DNA from: a virus
Length of the DNA stretch: 28,384 bases
Reading direction: 5' to 3' (one strand)
IMG/VR virus record: IMGVR_UViG_3300043466_000980
Location: 1-28,384 of that record
Part shown: one piece after another, positions 9,556-27,519 of the stretch
Numbering within the stretch: position 1 is the first letter of the stretch
Layout of the letters: every line of letters starts with the position of its first letter
The notes under the pieces: generated by a model
What the model was told of the DNA's origin: nothing
Seen by the model: the letters and a program-made list of their open reading frames with translations, nothing else
The model's database searches: none
Translations under genes and position numbers: made by a program

Positions 9556-12363
9556 ATGGCAAATACAGATGTTCGATTCTCGATACAATTTGATGGCACT
9601 GATTCAATTGATAAACTAACAAAAGCTATCAATGAAACAAAGGTAGCAATGAAAGATTTAGATAGGTCTACTGAAGAGTATGCTGAAAATTCTAAATTGT
9701 TAGGAAAAATTGAAGCTGAGTTAAAAGGCGTTAAAAAACAACAAGATGATGTTAATAAATCATTTTTGGAGGCATCAAATGCTTTAGGTGCTTATGACAA
9801 AGCATCATCCAAATTAAATAGACTTAGGAAAGAATATAAAAATTTAGCATTTGAAAACAAAGGCGCTACAAAAGAGGCAAAGGCATTACTTGAAGAGATA
9901 CAAGCATTAGATGCACAGTTAAAAGAAACTGATGGTCAAGTAGGTCAATTCCAGAGAAATGTAGGAAATTATCCAGAAAGTTTTTTTAATGCCAAAACAG
10001 CATTGGTTAAATTTATTCCTGGTCTTGAAGATTTAAATAACAAATTTAAAGAATCTGGAGCAAGTAGTTCAGGTTTTCAAGTTGCTTTAATTGGCGCTTT
10101 TGCAGCATTTGCAGCAGGTCAAAAAATAATTCAAATTATAGGCGACTTAAATGAATTTAATAAAACATTAGGAAAAACTGAACAACAATTAAAAGCATTA
10201 ACAGGAATAACAGGAGATGAATTAGATTCTTTATCTGTTGATATACAAAGTTTAGCAAAAACATTTGATGTTGATTCTAAAAGTATAATTGATTCTGCAA
10301 AGCAAATAAGTGAAAAAACAGGTGTCAGTTTTCAAGATGCAATTGGTCAGATTGAAAATGGCTTATTAAAAGGTAATGAAAGCGCGGATACATTTTTAAG
10401 TAATATAGCTGAAATGCCAGAGGCTTATGCTAAAGTATCTGAAGCCAGCGGTGAATATGCAAATAAACAAAAAGATTTATTAGAATCTAACAAAGAGCTA
10501 ATTGATGGACAGATAGAAGGTGCTAAAAAATTCGAGCAGGTTGGTAGAACAATGGAGGTTCTTGGTAATAATATAAAAGCATATTTAATAGATTATTTAT
10601 TATTTGCATATGAAAAAGTATTTTTGCCATTTTATAATAATGCTTTACTACCATTAGGTAATGCTTTAGACAAATTAATTAAACAGTTTGGAGGTGCTGG
10701 GATATCGTTAGAGTTTTTAGGAAAAATGGTTTATTTAGGTTACAAGCCATTAGAAATATTAATTAATCTTTATGCAAAAGTAATTGATGGATTAGCAGGT
10801 ATTATTCAATACGCTAAAGAAGCTGGACAATATTTAGGTCTTGTATCCAAACAAAGTAAGGAACAATCTGACGCTGCTGTCAATAACATAAAAATGCAAC
10901 AGGATGCTGAACAAAAAGCATTAGCAGAAAAACAAAAGATAGAAGCTGAAAAAGCAAAGGCTGAACAAGATGCAATAAATAAAGAAAAAGAAAGAATTGA
11001 GGCTAATAAAAAAGCTGTCGAAGAATATAAACGTCAACAAGAACAACTTCAAAAAGATAGAAAAAAGTTTATTGATGACGAAAATAAATATATAGAATCA
11101 GCCTTAAAAATAAATCAATCTATAATTGATAAAACAAATAAACTAACAACAGAACTTATAACAGATGAATATAGAAAACGCAGAGTAATAGCACAAGAAA
11201 ATTATGATGCTGAAATTAAAGGTATTCAGGATAGTTTAAATGAACAGAAAAAAGCTAATATCGAAAGAATAAAAGAAGCTGAAAAGTTATTTGGTCTTAA
11301 TTCAGTTCAAGCTAAAAAGGCAAAAGAAGAAGCAAAGGCAAATGAAATAGCAGGTGCTGAAGAATTAGCTAATTTACAAATTTCACTTAAAATAAAATTA
11401 ACTGATGAATTATTAGCTATTGACAAAGACCAAAATAATAAACTAATTGAAGAAAATAAAAAGCTATATGACCAGCGCAAAAATCAAATTCAAAATTCAT
11501 ATACTAATGAGTTAAATATTTTAGATACATTTTTGGCAGAGGGTTTAATCAAAGAAGATGAGTATAATCAAAAAGTATATGAGTTAAATAAAAAGAGAAT
11601 TGAAGACCTATTAGCTTTAAATAAAAATCAGTTAGCTAATAATAAGGATTTAAATACTCAAGAAATTGAGTCTATTGTTAGTTCAAATATTGCATTGAAT
11701 AAAGACTTAGCAAAATTAGAATCTGAAAGAACGCAAAAGTTTAAAGAGGAAAGCGACAAAAGAACTAATAAGGATAAAGAAGAAGCGCAAAAGAGAAAAG
11801 AAAAATTAAACCAAGATATTCAAGATGCTGGCAAATATGCTCAGTTAGCTTTAGATACTTTACAGGGTTTTATTGAGATATCTGACCAGAAGCGAATGGA
11901 GCGATTAGAAAAAGATGCTGAAGCTAATCAACAATTACAGGATAATTTAAACGAGCGTTTACAAACAGCTACTGGTTTAGAGCGTAGATATTTAGAGCAG
12001 CAACTTGAAGCTAACAAACAGACAGCTGAAAACATAGCAAAGGAAAAAGAAAAAGCTGAAAAAGACGCTGCAAAGAAAAAGAAAATAGGAGCAATTATTG
12101 AATCTATTATTAACACAGCTTTAGCTATTTCTGCTGCGAATACTTTAATACCTCCAGCAAACATTCCTGCTATGATTTACGCTGGTATTGCTGGCGCTGC
12201 TCAGACAGCCTTAATCGCTGCACAGCCTCTCGCAAAGGGTGGCGTTGTTGGCAAGGGCGATGAGATAGTCCAGTTCGCTTCAGGTGGTAGAGTTACGTCA
12301 AAAGGAAATATTAAACCTTTGTCAAATGGCTACTTTAAAGACTGGCGAGATCGTGTTAAATGA
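9556..12363 (+). CDS. tape measure protein, main reading frame
   Basis: A 935-residue protein that sets tail length and is threaded through the tail tube. Features in order: N-terminal coiled coil (about 15-130), a hydrophobic Ala-rich stretch (SSSGFQVALIGAFAAFAAGQ, about 170-190), a second hydrophobic part (345-410), a long Lys/Glu/Gln coiled coil (about 440-620 and 720-850), and a C-terminal hydrophobic pair (IGAIIESIINTALAISAAN ... IYAGIAGAAQTALIAA). The frame then reads AKGGVVGKGDEIVQFASGG and stops after LSNGYFKDWRDRVK. Related proteins continue past such Gly-rich repeats; the expected continuation is in the +1 frame from 12326. Using about 1.5 angstrom per residue, the tail would be about 140-155 nm. 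Confidence 0.85.
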   Translation: MANTDVRFSIQFDGTDSIDKLTKAINETKVAMKDLDRSTEEYAENSKLLGKIEAELKGVKKQQDDVNKSFLEASNALGAYDKASSKLNRLRKEYKNLAFENKGATKEAKALLEEIQALDAQLKETDGQVGQFQRNVGNYPESFFNAKTALVKFIPGLEDLNNKFKESGASSSGFQVALIGAFAAFAAGQKIIQIIGDLNEFNKTLGKTEQQLKALTGITGDELDSLSVDIQSLAKTFDVDSKSIIDSAKQISEKTGVSFQDAIGQIENGLLKGNESADTFLSNIAEMPEAYAKVSEASGEYANKQKDLLESNKELIDGQIEGAKKFEQVGRTMEVLGNNIKAYLIDYLLFAYEKVFLPFYNNALLPLGNALDKLIKQFGGAGISLEFLGKMVYLGYKPLEILINLYAKVIDGLAGIIQYAKEAGQYLGLVSKQSKEQSDAAVNNIKMQQDAEQKALAEKQKIEAEKAKAEQDAINKEKERIEANKKAVEEYKRQQEQLQKDRKKFIDDENKYIESALKINQSIIDKTNKLTTELITDEYRKRRVIAQENYDAEIKGIQDSLNEQKKANIERIKEAEKLFGLNSVQAKKAKEEAKANEIAGAEELANLQISLKIKLTDELLAIDKDQNNKLIEENKKLYDQRKNQIQNSYTNELNILDTFLAEGLIKEDEYNQKVYELNKKRIEDLLALNKNQLANNKDLNTQEIESIVSSNIALNKDLAKLESERTQKFKEESDKRTNKDKEEAQKRKEKLNQDIQDAGKYAQLALDTLQGFIEISDQKRMERLEKDAEANQQLQDNLNERLQTATGLERRYLEQQLEANKQTAENIAKEKEKAEKDAAKKKKIGAIIESIINTALAISAANTLIPPANIPAMIYAGIAGAAQTALIAAQPLAKGGVVGKGDEIVQFASGGRVTSKGNIKPLSNGYFKDWRDRVK

Positions 12364-18470: not shown

Positions 18471-20175
18471 AATCAATGCGAATCCTGCCACCTCGAACAA
18501 AGTCCACGCGTGGACAGGTGTTCAGCTTGGTGTTCGCCCTTTTTTAATAGATGACATCTTTAGAGAACCAACTAAAGAGTTTTTAGATACAACGGTTGTA
18601 GAGTATATTCCTTTTAATACCTATGACCTTTGGCGATTAGATAGGATTCAGGCTATCTGTAATAATTCCACTACTACGTCTTCAATTATTCAACAAAAAG
18701 TAAACTACGCTTTAGGTGATGGGTTTTATAGCGTACCTGCTGCTTCTCTTAATATCCTTTCGAGCGTTCGCGAGCAGTTGGTTGACAAGGCACAGATAAC
18801 AATGGAGCAAGAAATTGAACTAAATGATTTCTTAATGAATGTTAACCCTGAGAATGAAAGTTTAGAGGAATTGAGTGCAAAGATATTTAAAGACTTTGCC
18901 AGTTTTGGTAATGCCTTTATAGAGTTACAAAGAATTAAGGTAGGCGGAACGTTGAAATATACGATGCGATTACTACCTATTACATGGTGTAGACCAAAGA
19001 AGGCAGCTAAAGACGAACTTTACCCTACTCATATAGGTATCAGTTCTGAGTTTGAGCAACACTATATTATAACACCAAAAGACCCTATTGACTTACCACT
19101 TTTCCCACACTTCGAGCGATTCGATAACGTGGAAAAATCTATTATACATTTAAAGAATTACGAACCTACTTTAGTTTATTGGGGTATTCCTGACTGGGTC
19201 AGTGCAAAGATATGGAGCGAATTAGAATATAGGATTCCAAAGTTTAATCAAAGTAAGTTTGAGAATGGTTTCACTCCAAGTGCTATTATTTCTTTATACG
19301 GTTCTACAAATCAGGAAGAGGCTCAGGAAGTAGTAAGGGCGATGCGCGACTGTTTTACTGGTACTGGGAATAATAACAAGATGTTTATTCAGGCTTTGAG
19401 AGATAACAGTTATAAGGCTGATGTACAAGTTTTGGATAGTAGTTTTGATGGCGAATTTATGCAGTTGCAAAGTATAGCACAACAAGCTATTGTTTCTGCT
19501 CACAGATGGACTATGAGTTTAGGCGGTTTTAGTACAGCTGGTCAGCAAGGCACTAACCAACAAACAAGAACAGAGTTTGATATTGTTTATAATACTGTTA
19601 TTAGACCTATACAAAGAATGTTTTTAACTAAGTTTTTAAACCCAGTTATTCAAGACGCTGCTAAATTCTTTGGCAAAGATTGGTCGAATATTGCTTTGGA
19701 TATTGCTAAATCTTATCCTACATCTTTTGCTGGTGATTTAGATATTAAGACTGTTTTAACAACCGATGAGCAAAGAGCGGAACTTGGTTTTCAGCCTTTG
19801 GAGAAAGTAACTCCTGAGACAGAATTACAGCCATTACCTGAAGATCCTATCATGGCAAGTATTAAGGTTCAAGACAGTTATGCTGATTATCCTAAAGAGG
19901 CTATAAATAATGCCAAACGTGCTTTAAAATATGCTGAAGAAAACGGCTGGGGAAGCTGTGGAGAAGCGACAGGAAAAGCGCGCGCTAATCAATTAGCAAA
20001 GGGCGAACCAATTAGTAGAGATACAATTGCAAGAATGGCATCTTTTAAAAGACACCAACAGCATAAGAATGTTCCTTACTCAGAAGGTTGTGGCGGTTTG
20101 ATGTGGGACAGTTGGGGCGGTGACGCAGGAATAGAATGGGCGATTAACAAACTTAAAGAAATAGATAGCAAATGA
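18439..20175 (+). CDS. portal protein with C-terminal GCGGLMWD domain
   Basis: A 578-residue portal, the dodecameric DNA gate of the capsid. A TTG at 18433 is in frame; ATG 18439 is preferred. The crown-wing-stem body spans about 1-450 (LRLLPITWCRP-like MRLLPITWCRPK, YWGIPDWVSAKIWSELEY, FENGFTPSAIISLYG, QQTRTEFDIVYNTVIRPIQR). Residues about 480-578 form a separate domain: DYPKEAINNAKRALKYAEEN, GKARANQLAKGEPIS, TIARMASFKRHQQHK and EGCGGLMWDSWGGDAGIEWA. I have seen this domain attached to other phage head proteins, including prohead proteases. Its role is unknown. ATGA overlap with the next gene. Confidence 0.85.
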   Translation: MKNKTNLRANRINANPATSNKVHAWTGVQLGVRPFLIDDIFREPTKEFLDTTVVEYIPFNTYDLWRLDRIQAICNNSTTTSSIIQQKVNYALGDGFYSVPAASLNILSSVREQLVDKAQITMEQEIELNDFLMNVNPENESLEELSAKIFKDFASFGNAFIELQRIKVGGTLKYTMRLLPITWCRPKKAAKDELYPTHIGISSEFEQHYIITPKDPIDLPLFPHFERFDNVEKSIIHLKNYEPTLVYWGIPDWVSAKIWSELEYRIPKFNQSKFENGFTPSAIISLYGSTNQEEAQEVVRAMRDCFTGTGNNNKMFIQALRDNSYKADVQVLDSSFDGEFMQLQSIAQQAIVSAHRWTMSLGGFSTAGQQGTNQQTRTEFDIVYNTVIRPIQRMFLTKFLNPVIQDAAKFFGKDWSNIALDIAKSYPTSFAGDLDIKTVLTTDEQRAELGFQPLEKVTPETELQPLPEDPIMASIKVQDSYADYPKEAINNAKRALKYAEENGWGSCGEATGKARANQLAKGEPISRDTIARMASFKRHQQHKNVPYSEGCGGLMWDSWGGDAGIEWAINKLKEIDSK

Positions 20176-25044: not shown

Positions 25045-25114
25045 TATATTATTCTTAATTTTTGTCATGGTACTATTGAACTGGTATTTAAATTTCTTTG
25101 AAGATGAATCATAG
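25037..25114 (+). CDS. possible 25-residue single-span membrane peptide
   Basis: ATG 25037 to TAG 25114 encodes MINILFLIFVMVLLNWYL followed by NFFEDES: one membrane span and a short acidic tail. It overlaps the preceding stop (8 bases) and the next start (11 bases), the tight packing expected of a real small gene, and it fills the otherwise empty 59-bp gap. Its size resembles lysis, superinfection-exclusion or regulatory peptides. Chance ORFs of this length occur easily in A+T-rich DNA. Confidence 0.35.
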   Translation: MINILFLIFVMVLLNWYLNFFEDES

Positions 25115-25694
25115 TAAGTTAACACCTGAAATGGTAGAGGGTATAAAAAAGGATTACTTAAAAGGAAATACTCAAAAGACAATCATTTATAAGTACAGGA
25201 TTTCAACGGCTACAATGTACAGTATCTGTGAGGGTCTTAAACAGAAGCGTAAAGAGAAAAATATATTTGAAAAGGTGCATTTTGATAGAGAACATTATCA
25301 GTTAACTCTTGGCAAATTAGCAATCAAATACTGTATATCTGAAAACTACGTCAAAAGAATTTTATATAACAAGGAATTTAATGAATATATGAAACATCCA
25401 GATACAGGCTTGAAGCAAAAACTACAAAGTGATATTGTTTATTTGATTCATTCTATTGAATATGTTTACAGTCACACTGGTGCAGAAGACCAAAAGGTTT
25501 ACAAGTATCATAATTTTTTAAAATCAAAGTTGTTTTATATTGAGTTTGTAGACCATCCTGTTTTTGGCTGGTACTACCATTGTGACAGTCGCGGTAAAAA
25601 CATCTGCGACAGTCGCTATGCCAAAAGATACTTTGATAATATTGAAGACTGTAAAAAAGATTTGGGAAAAACCTTAAGAAAGTTGGGATATTAA
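25104..25694 (+). CDS. protein with two HTH-like segments
   Basis: A 196-residue basic protein; ATG 25104 preferred over an in-frame TTG at 25098. The N-terminal part LTPEMVEGIKKDYLKGNTQK with YKYRISTATMYSICEGL is a homeodomain-like (resolvase-type) helix-turn-helix, and LTLGKLAIKYCISENYVKRI looks like a second one. The C-terminal half (FVDHPVFGWYYHCDSRGKNI, then NIEDCKKDLGKTLRKLGY) is unrecognised. A DNA-binding or regulatory protein ahead of the replication gene is plausible; its stop codon is just upstream of the promoter at 25706. Confidence 0.55.
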   Translation: MNHSKLTPEMVEGIKKDYLKGNTQKTIIYKYRISTATMYSICEGLKQKRKEKNIFEKVHFDREHYQLTLGKLAIKYCISENYVKRILYNKEFNEYMKHPDTGLKQKLQSDIVYLIHSIEYVYSHTGAEDQKVYKYHNFLKSKLFYIEFVDHPVFGWYYHCDSRGKNICDSRYAKRYFDNIEDCKKDLGKTLRKLGY

Positions 25695-25713
25695 ATAATA
25701 TTTTTTATATTTG
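25682..25713 (+). promoter_or_regulatory. promoter P4 for the leader RNA
   Basis: -7 box TATATTTG (25706-25713) fits TAnnTTTG. The -33 element is GTTG at 25682-25685 (20 bp spacing) or TTGG one base on (19 bp). Transcription would begin around 25719-25721, just before the first hairpin of the kissing-loop RNA. Confidence 0.6.
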
Positions 25714-25719
25714 TGAATC

Positions 25720-25815
25720 GAAATGATTGTCGGGAAGCAATCAGATAAATTTATAACAGCCTCAGGGGTTATTATGTCTTCCCGCATAGTAACTTTTCTG
25801 AGGCTAATTTTTTTT
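25720..25815 (+). ncRNA. kissing-loop leader RNA with intrinsic terminator
   Basis: Hairpin 1: TGATTG (25724-25729) with CAATCA (25738-25743), 8-nt loop TCGGGAAG. Hairpin 2: a long stem AGCCTCAG (25758-25765) with CTGAGGCT (25798-25805), enclosing GTTATTATG (25768-25776) with CATAGTAAC (25785-25793; one G-T pair), 8-nt loop TCTTCCCG, followed by T8 (25808-25815). Both loops start with U and are otherwise exact 7-nt complements (CGGGAAG with CTTCCCG), predicting a loop-loop kiss as in ColE1 RNA I/II. Hairpin 2 is also an intrinsic terminator ending 5 nt before the initiator ATG. It may be a stand-alone small RNA of about 95 nt or an attenuator of the initiator gene. Confidence 0.8.
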
Positions 25816-25820
25816 AATGA

Positions 25821-26810
25821 ATGAAATATAATATTCAGATTAACCAAAAAGCTATAATAGATTTAAGGTTAAATCTTACCTTGGAAGAGGCTATTATTTT
25901 AGATTTTTGCATGCAATTTGTAAACTCACCACAGGCAGTTAAAATCTATTATAACAATTCAATGTATGTTTGGATTAGCCATAATTTAATACTTGAAAAT
26001 TTACCTATATTGAAACTAAAAAAAGATTCAATTTATAGGAAAATGAAAGAACTTTGCGAAAAACAATTTTTATTGATACATCCTGAAACGCAAAAACTTG
26101 GGCGTTCATATTATTCAATAGGAATAAATGCAAATAAACTTATATTTTCACCCTCGGAAGAAAATCCGAACCCTCGGATAAACACCCATAGCCCTACGGA
26201 TAAAAATCCGAACCCCTACGGAAATAAATCCGAAGCCCCCTCGGAAGAAAATCCGAACTATAATAATATAAATTATAATACTATAAATAATAATTATATA
26301 ATAGATAATAAAGAAAGCGTTTCTGTTTCTGAATCCGAAATTGAATCTGTTAAGTATTATTTTGAAACTAACCAAATCTTAGAACTGCTAACAGAAAAAA
26401 CTGGAGCTAAATATAAGATACCAAAAACTAAATCGCTATTATTACGCTACGGAGTTTATAAGCTAATCAAAGAACGCTTTGAAGATGGCGCTATCTTAGA
26501 AGACTTTGTCAATATTATAGAGTATAAATATAATGAGTGGATAAACACCAAATTTATTTCTTACTTAGTCCCAGATACACTATTCCGAAAATCTAATTTT
26601 GAAAAGTATCTTACACAAATTCAAATTAAACCTATTTCTAACAACACAAATAATTTAATCGATGACAATGGAAATTACGCAAAGACCGATGAGGGTAGAA
26701 AGTTGTTTCATGCTAACGTTGCAAAAGGTGCAGCAGACGCTATCCGTGCAATCAGAAACGGCGAAAGAGATGATTTTTGGCTACGAATATCCAATGCGAA
26801 ACCAGAATGA
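25821..26810 (+). CDS. replication initiator with internal origin (lambda O-like)
   Basis: A 329-residue initiator. N-terminal winged helix (about 1-108: LNLTLEEAIILDFCMQF, YVWISHNLILENLPIL, KKDSIYRKMKELCEKQFLL, GRSYYSIG) for origin binding. The linker (108-175) is Asn/Pro-rich with the repeated SEENPN string because it is encoded by the iterons and A+T-rich tract. The C-terminal domain (about 180-265: ILELLTEKTGAKYKIP, LIKERFEDGAILEDFVNIIE, KYNEWIN, YLVPDTLFRKSNFEKYL) matches the conserved phage replisome/Phg_2220-type C-terminal domain. Start ATG is 5 bp after the RNA terminator T-run. The next gene overlaps its end. Confidence 0.8.
   Translation: MKYNIQINQKAIIDLRLNLTLEEAIILDFCMQFVNSPQAVKIYYNNSMYVWISHNLILENLPILKLKKDSIYRKMKELCEKQFLLIHPETQKLGRSYYSIGINANKLIFSPSEENPNPRINTHSPTDKNPNPYGNKSEAPSEENPNYNNINYNTINNNYIIDNKESVSVSESEIESVKYYFETNQILELLTEKTGAKYKIPKTKSLLLRYGVYKLIKERFEDGAILEDFVNIIEYKYNEWINTKFISYLVPDTLFRKSNFEKYLTQIQIKPISNNTNNLIDDNGNYAKTDEGRKLFHANVAKGAADAIRAIRNGERDDFWLRISNAKPE
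26153..26258 (+). repeat. origin iterons (CGGA-N6-TCCG x5)
   Basis: CGGA starts at 26155, 26175, 26197, 26219 and 26242, spacing 20, 22, 22 and 23 bp. Copies 1, 3, 4 and 5 are followed by TCCG after six bases (TCCG at 26165, 26207, 26229 and 26252), each a 14-bp interrupted palindrome; copy 2 keeps only its left half. They lie inside the initiator gene, the lambda ori arrangement. Confidence 0.8.
26259..26312 (+). other. A+T-rich tract next to iterons, likely unwinding element
   Basis: Only two of 54 positions are G or C (26281 and 26304), with repeated TATAATA-type strings. It directly follows the last iteron, as the DNA unwinding element does in iteron-type origins. It encodes an Asn/Ile/Tyr-rich linker that can tolerate such composition. 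Confidence 0.7.
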
Positions 26811-27519
26811 TGCAGAACTGGGGCCAGCTTTAGGTGCAGCTTTATCTATTTGCGCTGAAGTTTATTGTGGTATCAAAGAAAATACTCTTAACCAAAATAT
26901 CCTTATTGAATGTTCTAAGTTCGTTTATAAATATTATAAGGATTTGGGCCTGTTAGAAATCCGCGAGGCTTTTGAAATGTGCGCTAATAACAAATTTGAA
27001 AAGGTAAACATGAGAGCGTACTACGGTCAATTTAACGTTTCAATGTTAGGAGATATTCTAAGCGCGTACAAATCTGAAAGGAATAAGGTTTTAAATAAGA
27101 TACTTCATGAACATGAGCGCGCTATCTCTGGCGAATCATTTATGGATATTGTAGAACATAAAAACTATATAGCCAGACAGGAAGTTATCGCAGAGTTTAA
27201 AGAGCAAATTGAACGTAGAAAAAATGGCTTAGAACTTAAATATAAAACAGTTGACGAAATACGTATTCACTGGCCCAAAATTTTAATTGATAACGGAATC
27301 ATTGAATTACCTATTGAAAGAAAGCGCGAAATCTGGAATGAAGCCAAAGAGTTAGTTATGAAAAAACTTAGAAAAACAGCTGCTAACTTTCAAGATATTT
27401 ACGAAGCCAAAGGAGCGCGTCAAATGATTAAAACTATTGAGACAAACGGACAAAAGACGATCAGAGAAAAAACAGAGGTTCTGTATGGTAAATTATACGT
27501 TTGGGAATTTTTAAAATAA
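26770..27519 (+). CDS. hypothetical replication-region protein
   Basis: A 249-residue helical protein of unknown family, following the initiator in the position of a helicase loader (lambda P). The frame is open from 26662, but that stretch overlaps the initiator; ATG 26770 (MIFGYEYPMRNQ) or ATG 26794 is the probable start. It is rich in Lys/Glu helices (DLGLLEIREAFEMCANNKFE, MRAYYGQFNVSMLGDILSAY, VIAEFKEQIERRKNG). There is no Walker A motif, so it is not a DnaC-type ATPase; a helicase-loader-type role without ATPase is only positional inference. Confidence 0.55.
   Translation: MIFGYEYPMRNQNDAELGPALGAALSICAEVYCGIKENTLNQNILIECSKFVYKYYKDLGLLEIREAFEMCANNKFEKVNMRAYYGQFNVSMLGDILSAYKSERNKVLNKILHEHERAISGESFMDIVEHKNYIARQEVIAEFKEQIERRKNGLELKYKTVDEIRIHWPKILIDNGIIELPIERKREIWNEAKELVMKKLRKTAANFQDIYEAKGARQMIKTIETNGQKTIREKTEVLYGKLYVWEFLK

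Follow-up and report, generated by a model that had tools for sequence, protein, structure and literature searches.

A kissing-hairpin leader RNA, apparently undescribed, ahead of replication initiator and homing-endonuclease genes of Bacteroidota phages

What does a short, highly structured stretch do when it lies directly ahead of a phage replication initiator gene? The question is raised by IMG/VR virus record IMGVR_UViG_3300043466_000980, the 28,384 bases of which (the window, i.e. the whole stretch analysed) encode terminase, capsid, ERF recombinase, initiator and endolysin. The original prediction described here two hairpins with 8-nucleotide (nt) loops complementary over 7 bases. Our reading agrees: the loops of hairpin 1 (HP1) and hairpin 2 (HP2) form seven Watson-Crick pairs, from C25731-G25784 through G25737-C25778, and RNAfold of 25715-25820 returns both hairpins (–32.2 kcal/mol, z –4.57, equally stable shuffles 0/200). 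The gene behind them, taken from the start to be a phage replication initiator, scores as one (phrog_428, 1.1e–29; PF09524, 5.1e–16). Kissing hairpin pairs have a low chance rate by both a Markov null and whole-genome scans. Under a first-order Markov model of the whole window, 0.1 pairs with stems ≥6 and a kiss of 7 nt are expected per window; requiring ≥10 bp in one stem left none in 60 replicates.

The structure was tested as a kissing-loop RNA, and compensatory changes are present in the two apical loops. Lack of loop covariation in relatives had been set beforehand as the finding that would speak against the kiss; covariation was found. MAFFT misaligned the loops of full leaders, so pairs were counted on hand-cut inner hairpins from 16 distinct sequences (L018 and Flavobacterium phage FCL-2, each pairing 7/7, were left out). 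Kiss positions are paired in 112/112 cases, and 7/7 pairs have changed on both sides. The covariation score, 0.849, lies above all 500 shuffles (0.175, standard deviation 0.045) and above slid pairings (≤0.195), but the sequences are partly related and the score is no formal probability. When 15 loop pairs were cross-tested, non-cognate pairings were complementary in only 1/210. Within the window's own phage group all loop pairs (n = 10) are 7/7 Watson-Crick. The nearest relative, L009, has 5 differences from the window in 102 leader nt, all of which preserve structure: G25732>T with C25783>A in the kiss, T25772>G with G25789>T in a stem, and a U-A to U-G change at 25801. L002/L016 keep the same layout with wholly different loops (GUAGAGA and UCUCUAC), before an initiator with a 99%-identical C-terminus and a different N-terminus. 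Given independent lineages and the compensatory pair in L009, chance is an implausible source of the covariation, and on this comparative evidence the kiss is real. The stems also hold G-U pairs on the + strand, where the opposite strand would have A-C mismatches.

The surroundings of the hairpins are those of a potential transcription unit (Table 1). The expected TAnnTTTG box was located just upstream with a TTG element at suitable distance. Such a box covers –12 to –5 in F. psychrophilum (PMC9723704), which places the predicted start a few nt before HP1; the consensus is flavobacterial. The gap between U8 and ATG is 5 nt, as had been stated. The view of HP2 as an intrinsic terminator held in part. 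The stem and the U8 tract are present, but U8 is separated from the GC stem by 3 nt (UAA), and a terminator scan permitting a stem-to-U offset of 0–2 nt found none in the window; the strict scan misses the putative terminator because of this offset.

Table 1. Features of the leader RNA and its flanking genes in the window
Feature	Position	Strand	Details
HTH (helix-turn-helix) DNA-binding protein, upstream gene	25104..25694	+	last codons overlapped by promoter
Promoter, Bacteroidota sigma-A type (predicted)	25683..25713	+	TTG 25683-25685, 20-nt spacer, TATATTTG 25706-25713; predicted start ~25718
HP1, 5'-terminal hairpin	25724..25743	+	6-bp stem, 8-nt loop; TGATTG-TCGGGAAG-CAATCA; loop UCGGGAAG, 25730-25737
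Kiss strand 1, CGGGAAG	25731..25737	+	inside HP1 loop 25730-25737
A/U-rich linker, 15 nt	25744..25758	+	sequence
HP2, terminator-like hairpin	25759..25804	+	~19 bp, 2-nt bulge, 8-nt loop; apical loop read in window as UCUUCCCG / TCTTCCCG, 25777-25784
Kiss strand 2, CTTCCCG	25778..25784	+	inside HP2 loop 25777-25784
U8 tract, putative terminator	25808..25815	+	sequence
Replication initiation protein with Phg_2220_C C-terminal domain	25821..26810	+	family matches

How widely is the element distributed? The window group was enlarged by searches with ERF and capsid alignments (the same alignments found no relatives in genome contigs), and a scan for paired hairpins whose loops are complementary, together with inspection of the site, found the kissing element in group contigs covering the initiator start. 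A pattern for HP2 only, with no kiss encoded, was run across IMG/VR and retrieved seven contigs beyond the original group with a kissing upstream hairpin (L075/L084, L077, L089, L090/L092, L095; two pairs resemble near-duplicates). Their kiss is 7 bp, or 6 bp plus one G-U in L090/L092, and each is followed by a homing-endonuclease gene, GIY-YIG or HNH, as judged by Pfam or start sequence. In the syntenic phages L077 and L089/L090 the RNA and its endonuclease occupy different junctions, and neither has the cassette at the other's site; hence RNA and homing endonuclease appear to move as a pair. Among cultured phages, a scan of the complete FCL-2 genome placed the element before a PF09524 initiator, and inspection of the same site in Flavobacterium phage FCV-1 revealed other letters and an 8-bp kiss. 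In Cellulophaga phi19:1 (identical sequence in phi10:1) it precedes a 72-amino-acid (aa) gene and a primosomal-protein-like gene. Judging from these occurrences, the element is not confined to the window-type initiator: homing-endonuclease genes have it in front of them too, as do initiator operons in unrelated phages of Bacteroidota. Endonuclease genes of crAss-like phages are without such a leader. A similarity search with the RNA region across the phage collection and an exact-loop pattern across IMG/VR gave no match, and a conserved-flank pattern gave 8 stretches with only 2 true elements (L009, L012).

Members share a general layout: the box, 9–33 nt to loop 1 in most, 40–62 nt to loop 2, a U tract, and an ATG within ~40 nt. 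The promoter box is kept in L009, L016, L043, L057, FCL-2, FCV-1 and phi19:1, and for most of the elements the predicted start falls at HP1 or a few nt ahead of it. Relatives with CCCG..CGGG stems (L026, L028, L057, L059) have the U run directly after the stem. In L059 (6465–6970, – strand) ~125 nt with their own terminator-like hairpin lie between the conserved promoter and HP1. Flavobacterium phage FL-1 (L098/L108) has leaders with a TATCTTTG box and a terminator-like hairpin at 10434–10574 and 31715–31874, before a GIY-YIG gene and a hypothetical gene; these lack the 7-bp kiss.

We compared the element with known RNA systems. Kisses of 7 nt are formed by ColE1 RNAI/RNAII, repZ systems require a coupled leader open reading frame (ORF), and guanidine-II riboswitches bind guanidine through short conserved ACGR loops. 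ColE1 RNAs pair from opposite strands, whereas the phage element has both loops in one transcript, and no TTG-N18-22-TAnnTTTG, the one promoter type covered, was seen on the minus strand near the RNA for a ColE1-type countertranscript. The guanidine-II riboswitch (mini-ykkC) also has two linker-joined hairpins with kissing loops, proposed to be intramolecular (PMC7357161); the phage kiss is 7 bp, its letters vary freely (15 different 7-nt loop pairs), and it has neither ACGR nor an Rfam match. Loop-loop pairing in a replication initiator leader is likewise found in the IncI-alpha/IncB repZ pseudoknot with inc antisense RNA (work cited in PMC10724649), but repZ systems depend on that antisense RNA, whereas for the phage element we saw no antisense promoter and no conservation of the leader ORF. 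In phi29, another phage, the packaging RNA likewise has two loops that complement each other; its kiss is 4 bp, intermolecular and part of the packaging motor (PMC7357161), whereas our element lies in replication or endonuclease operons and gave no Rfam match to that family. Leader hairpins of T4-type homing endonucleases (I-TevI, segB, mobE) similarly hold expression down, but they sequester the ribosome-binding site of readthrough transcripts (PMC2988022), in contrast to two kissing hairpins and a U tract inside a local transcript. In the features compared, the element departs from each of these systems, and the tested defining features of guanidine-II, repZ-type and phi29 packaging RNAs were absent. 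The first impression that no described class is involved was borne out by Rfam 15, which gave 0 hits for the whole window and, in a second search, only chance-level hits, below the gathering cut-off. Nor did we find the kissing element described in the literature searched, in which subscription journals are thinly covered.

What, then, might the leader do? It probably throttles the gene behind it, as its position and structure suggest. The kiss is best read as acting on the terminator in cis, and we hold it about evenly poised between right and wrong that a cis kissing attenuator sets premature termination and so limits initiator or endonuclease expression. Transcription would begin at the TAnnTTTG promoter, a few nt from HP1, and yield a leader RNA of ~100 nt. 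HP1 would fold first and HP2 second, and the 8-nt HP2 loop would then reach back across the A/U linker to form 7 bp in cis with that of HP1. HP2 and the U tract would act as a partial intrinsic terminator immediately before the start codon. By stabilising or timing HP2, the kiss may cause most transcripts to end as a short compact RNA, and only the fraction reading through would supply the DNA-acting protein (replication initiator here, homing endonuclease in other phages), keeping its synthesis low. We prefer this reading because the predicted start is near HP1, because initiator transcription must cross HP2 (the window leaves only those few nt between U8 and ATG), and because the linkers suffice: they are A/U-rich, 13–32 nt long, and at or above the rough minimum for spanning a coaxial stack in 17/18. 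Several observations weigh against it, besides the partial relatedness of the covariation set. In the window family UAA intervenes between stem and U tract, and L018, L022 and L043 have only a weak tract (UAAUUUAUUUU or UUAAUUAUUUU). The correlation between linker and stem length, based on hand-defined stems with no correction for relatedness, is weak over all 18 (Spearman 0.39, P-value 0.11; 0.59, P-value 0.012 without FCL-2). Loop 1 is purine-rich, a feature that a cis attenuator leaves unexplained. Finally, 6H, FL-1, TCUEAP2 and the stretch of phi46:3 covered (the first 40 kb of 73 kb) gave no sign of the element, and the phi39:1 initiator overlaps its upstream gene, with no leader space and no element before it.

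One could instead expect the kissing fold to shield the mRNA 5' end or to restrict 30S access to the start codon, with little termination. HP1 at the predicted 5' end and the HP2 base 16 nt upstream of the ATG would suit this, T4 endonuclease genes do use leader hairpins (PMC2988022), and mRNA structure tunes initiation in F. johnsoniae (PMC6847099). However, a pure translation leader has no need of the U tract that follows HP2 in nearly all members, and HP2 does not base-pair start codons; we consider this explanation unlikely, if the strongest of the competitors. Control in trans, raised in the original prediction, is possible but unsupported and, in our judgment, about as unlikely. Terminated leaders would build up as genomes multiply, and loop 1 of one would kiss loop 2 of another, giving negative feedback on the initiator and plasmid-like, allele-specific incompatibility. 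The element does sit before initiators, the loops diverge among related phages yet stay complementary, as incompatibility determinants would, and those of FCL-2 and FCV-1, which share a host species, do not cross-pair. Nevertheless, with the partner loop tens of nt away and linker length permitting cis pairing in 17/18, pairing in cis should win; the element is also common to endonuclease genes, no Bacteroidota-type promoter (TTG-N-TAnnTTTG) on the minus strand faces the RNA, and the loop strings are not found elsewhere on that strand in the window.

The same lack of recurring loop strings on that strand of the window argues against a stand-alone small RNA with a host or phage target elsewhere and an incidental downstream gene. 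Promoter and terminator-like end would form a self-contained unit, and the gene behind it does differ (initiator, GIY-YIG, HNH, 69–81-aa genes), but an ATG is always close downstream and the loops vary too much for a conserved host target, making this quite improbable. Least credible, and very unlikely, is a DNA inverted-repeat operator in which a DNA-binding protein would recognise the 7-mers as half-sites and the hairpins would be incidental. The 7-mers do form inverted repeats in DNA, and covariation could track protein specificity. Yet they occupy apical loops of stems in all members, their 40–62 nt spacing has no helical phasing, and G-U pairs occur in the stems and once in the kiss of L090.

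Other observations concern the initiator region. The initiator N-terminal half (window 25821–26300) is exchanged among close relatives (versus L016, L009, L018 and L022), while the C-terminal domain and the leader RNA position are constant; by these comparisons the leader RNA marks a recombination joint. A 33-codon ORF (25723–25824) begins within HP1, and its TGA overlaps the initiator ATG (ATGA). A conserved leader peptide, or a repZ-type coupled leader ORF, was rejected, as this frame is not kept in L043, L039 and L018; in L009 it is fused to the initiator. A 285-aa protein (26662–27519) overlaps the initiator end and is 46–54% identical across aligned relatives, and no Pfam or PHROG family matched it. 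In L047, ARAGORN called a tRNA-like gene with an odd 4-base anticodon (19895–19988); a similar L045 sequence was not called.

Overall, the kissing-hairpin leader is a real and apparently undescribed RNA element. It is rare for a long loop-loop contact to persist among unrelated phages while all of its pairs are exchanged, and this one is located where phage replication is switched on. A bolder proposal, which we regard as speculative and rather improbable, is a new Bacteroidota phage RNA class: a portable kissing-hairpin attenuator with freely variable loop letters, common to initiators and homing-endonuclease cassettes, in which allele-specific loop pairing would also act between co-infecting genomes for copy-number sensing or exclusion of relatives. 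Since cultured Flavobacterium and Cellulophaga phages carry the element, its mechanism is open to direct testing. For building RNA controls, the loops also provide orthogonal kissing pairs, and the element could reveal how initiator and endonuclease synthesis is metered by phages whose hosts do without Shine-Dalgarno sequences.
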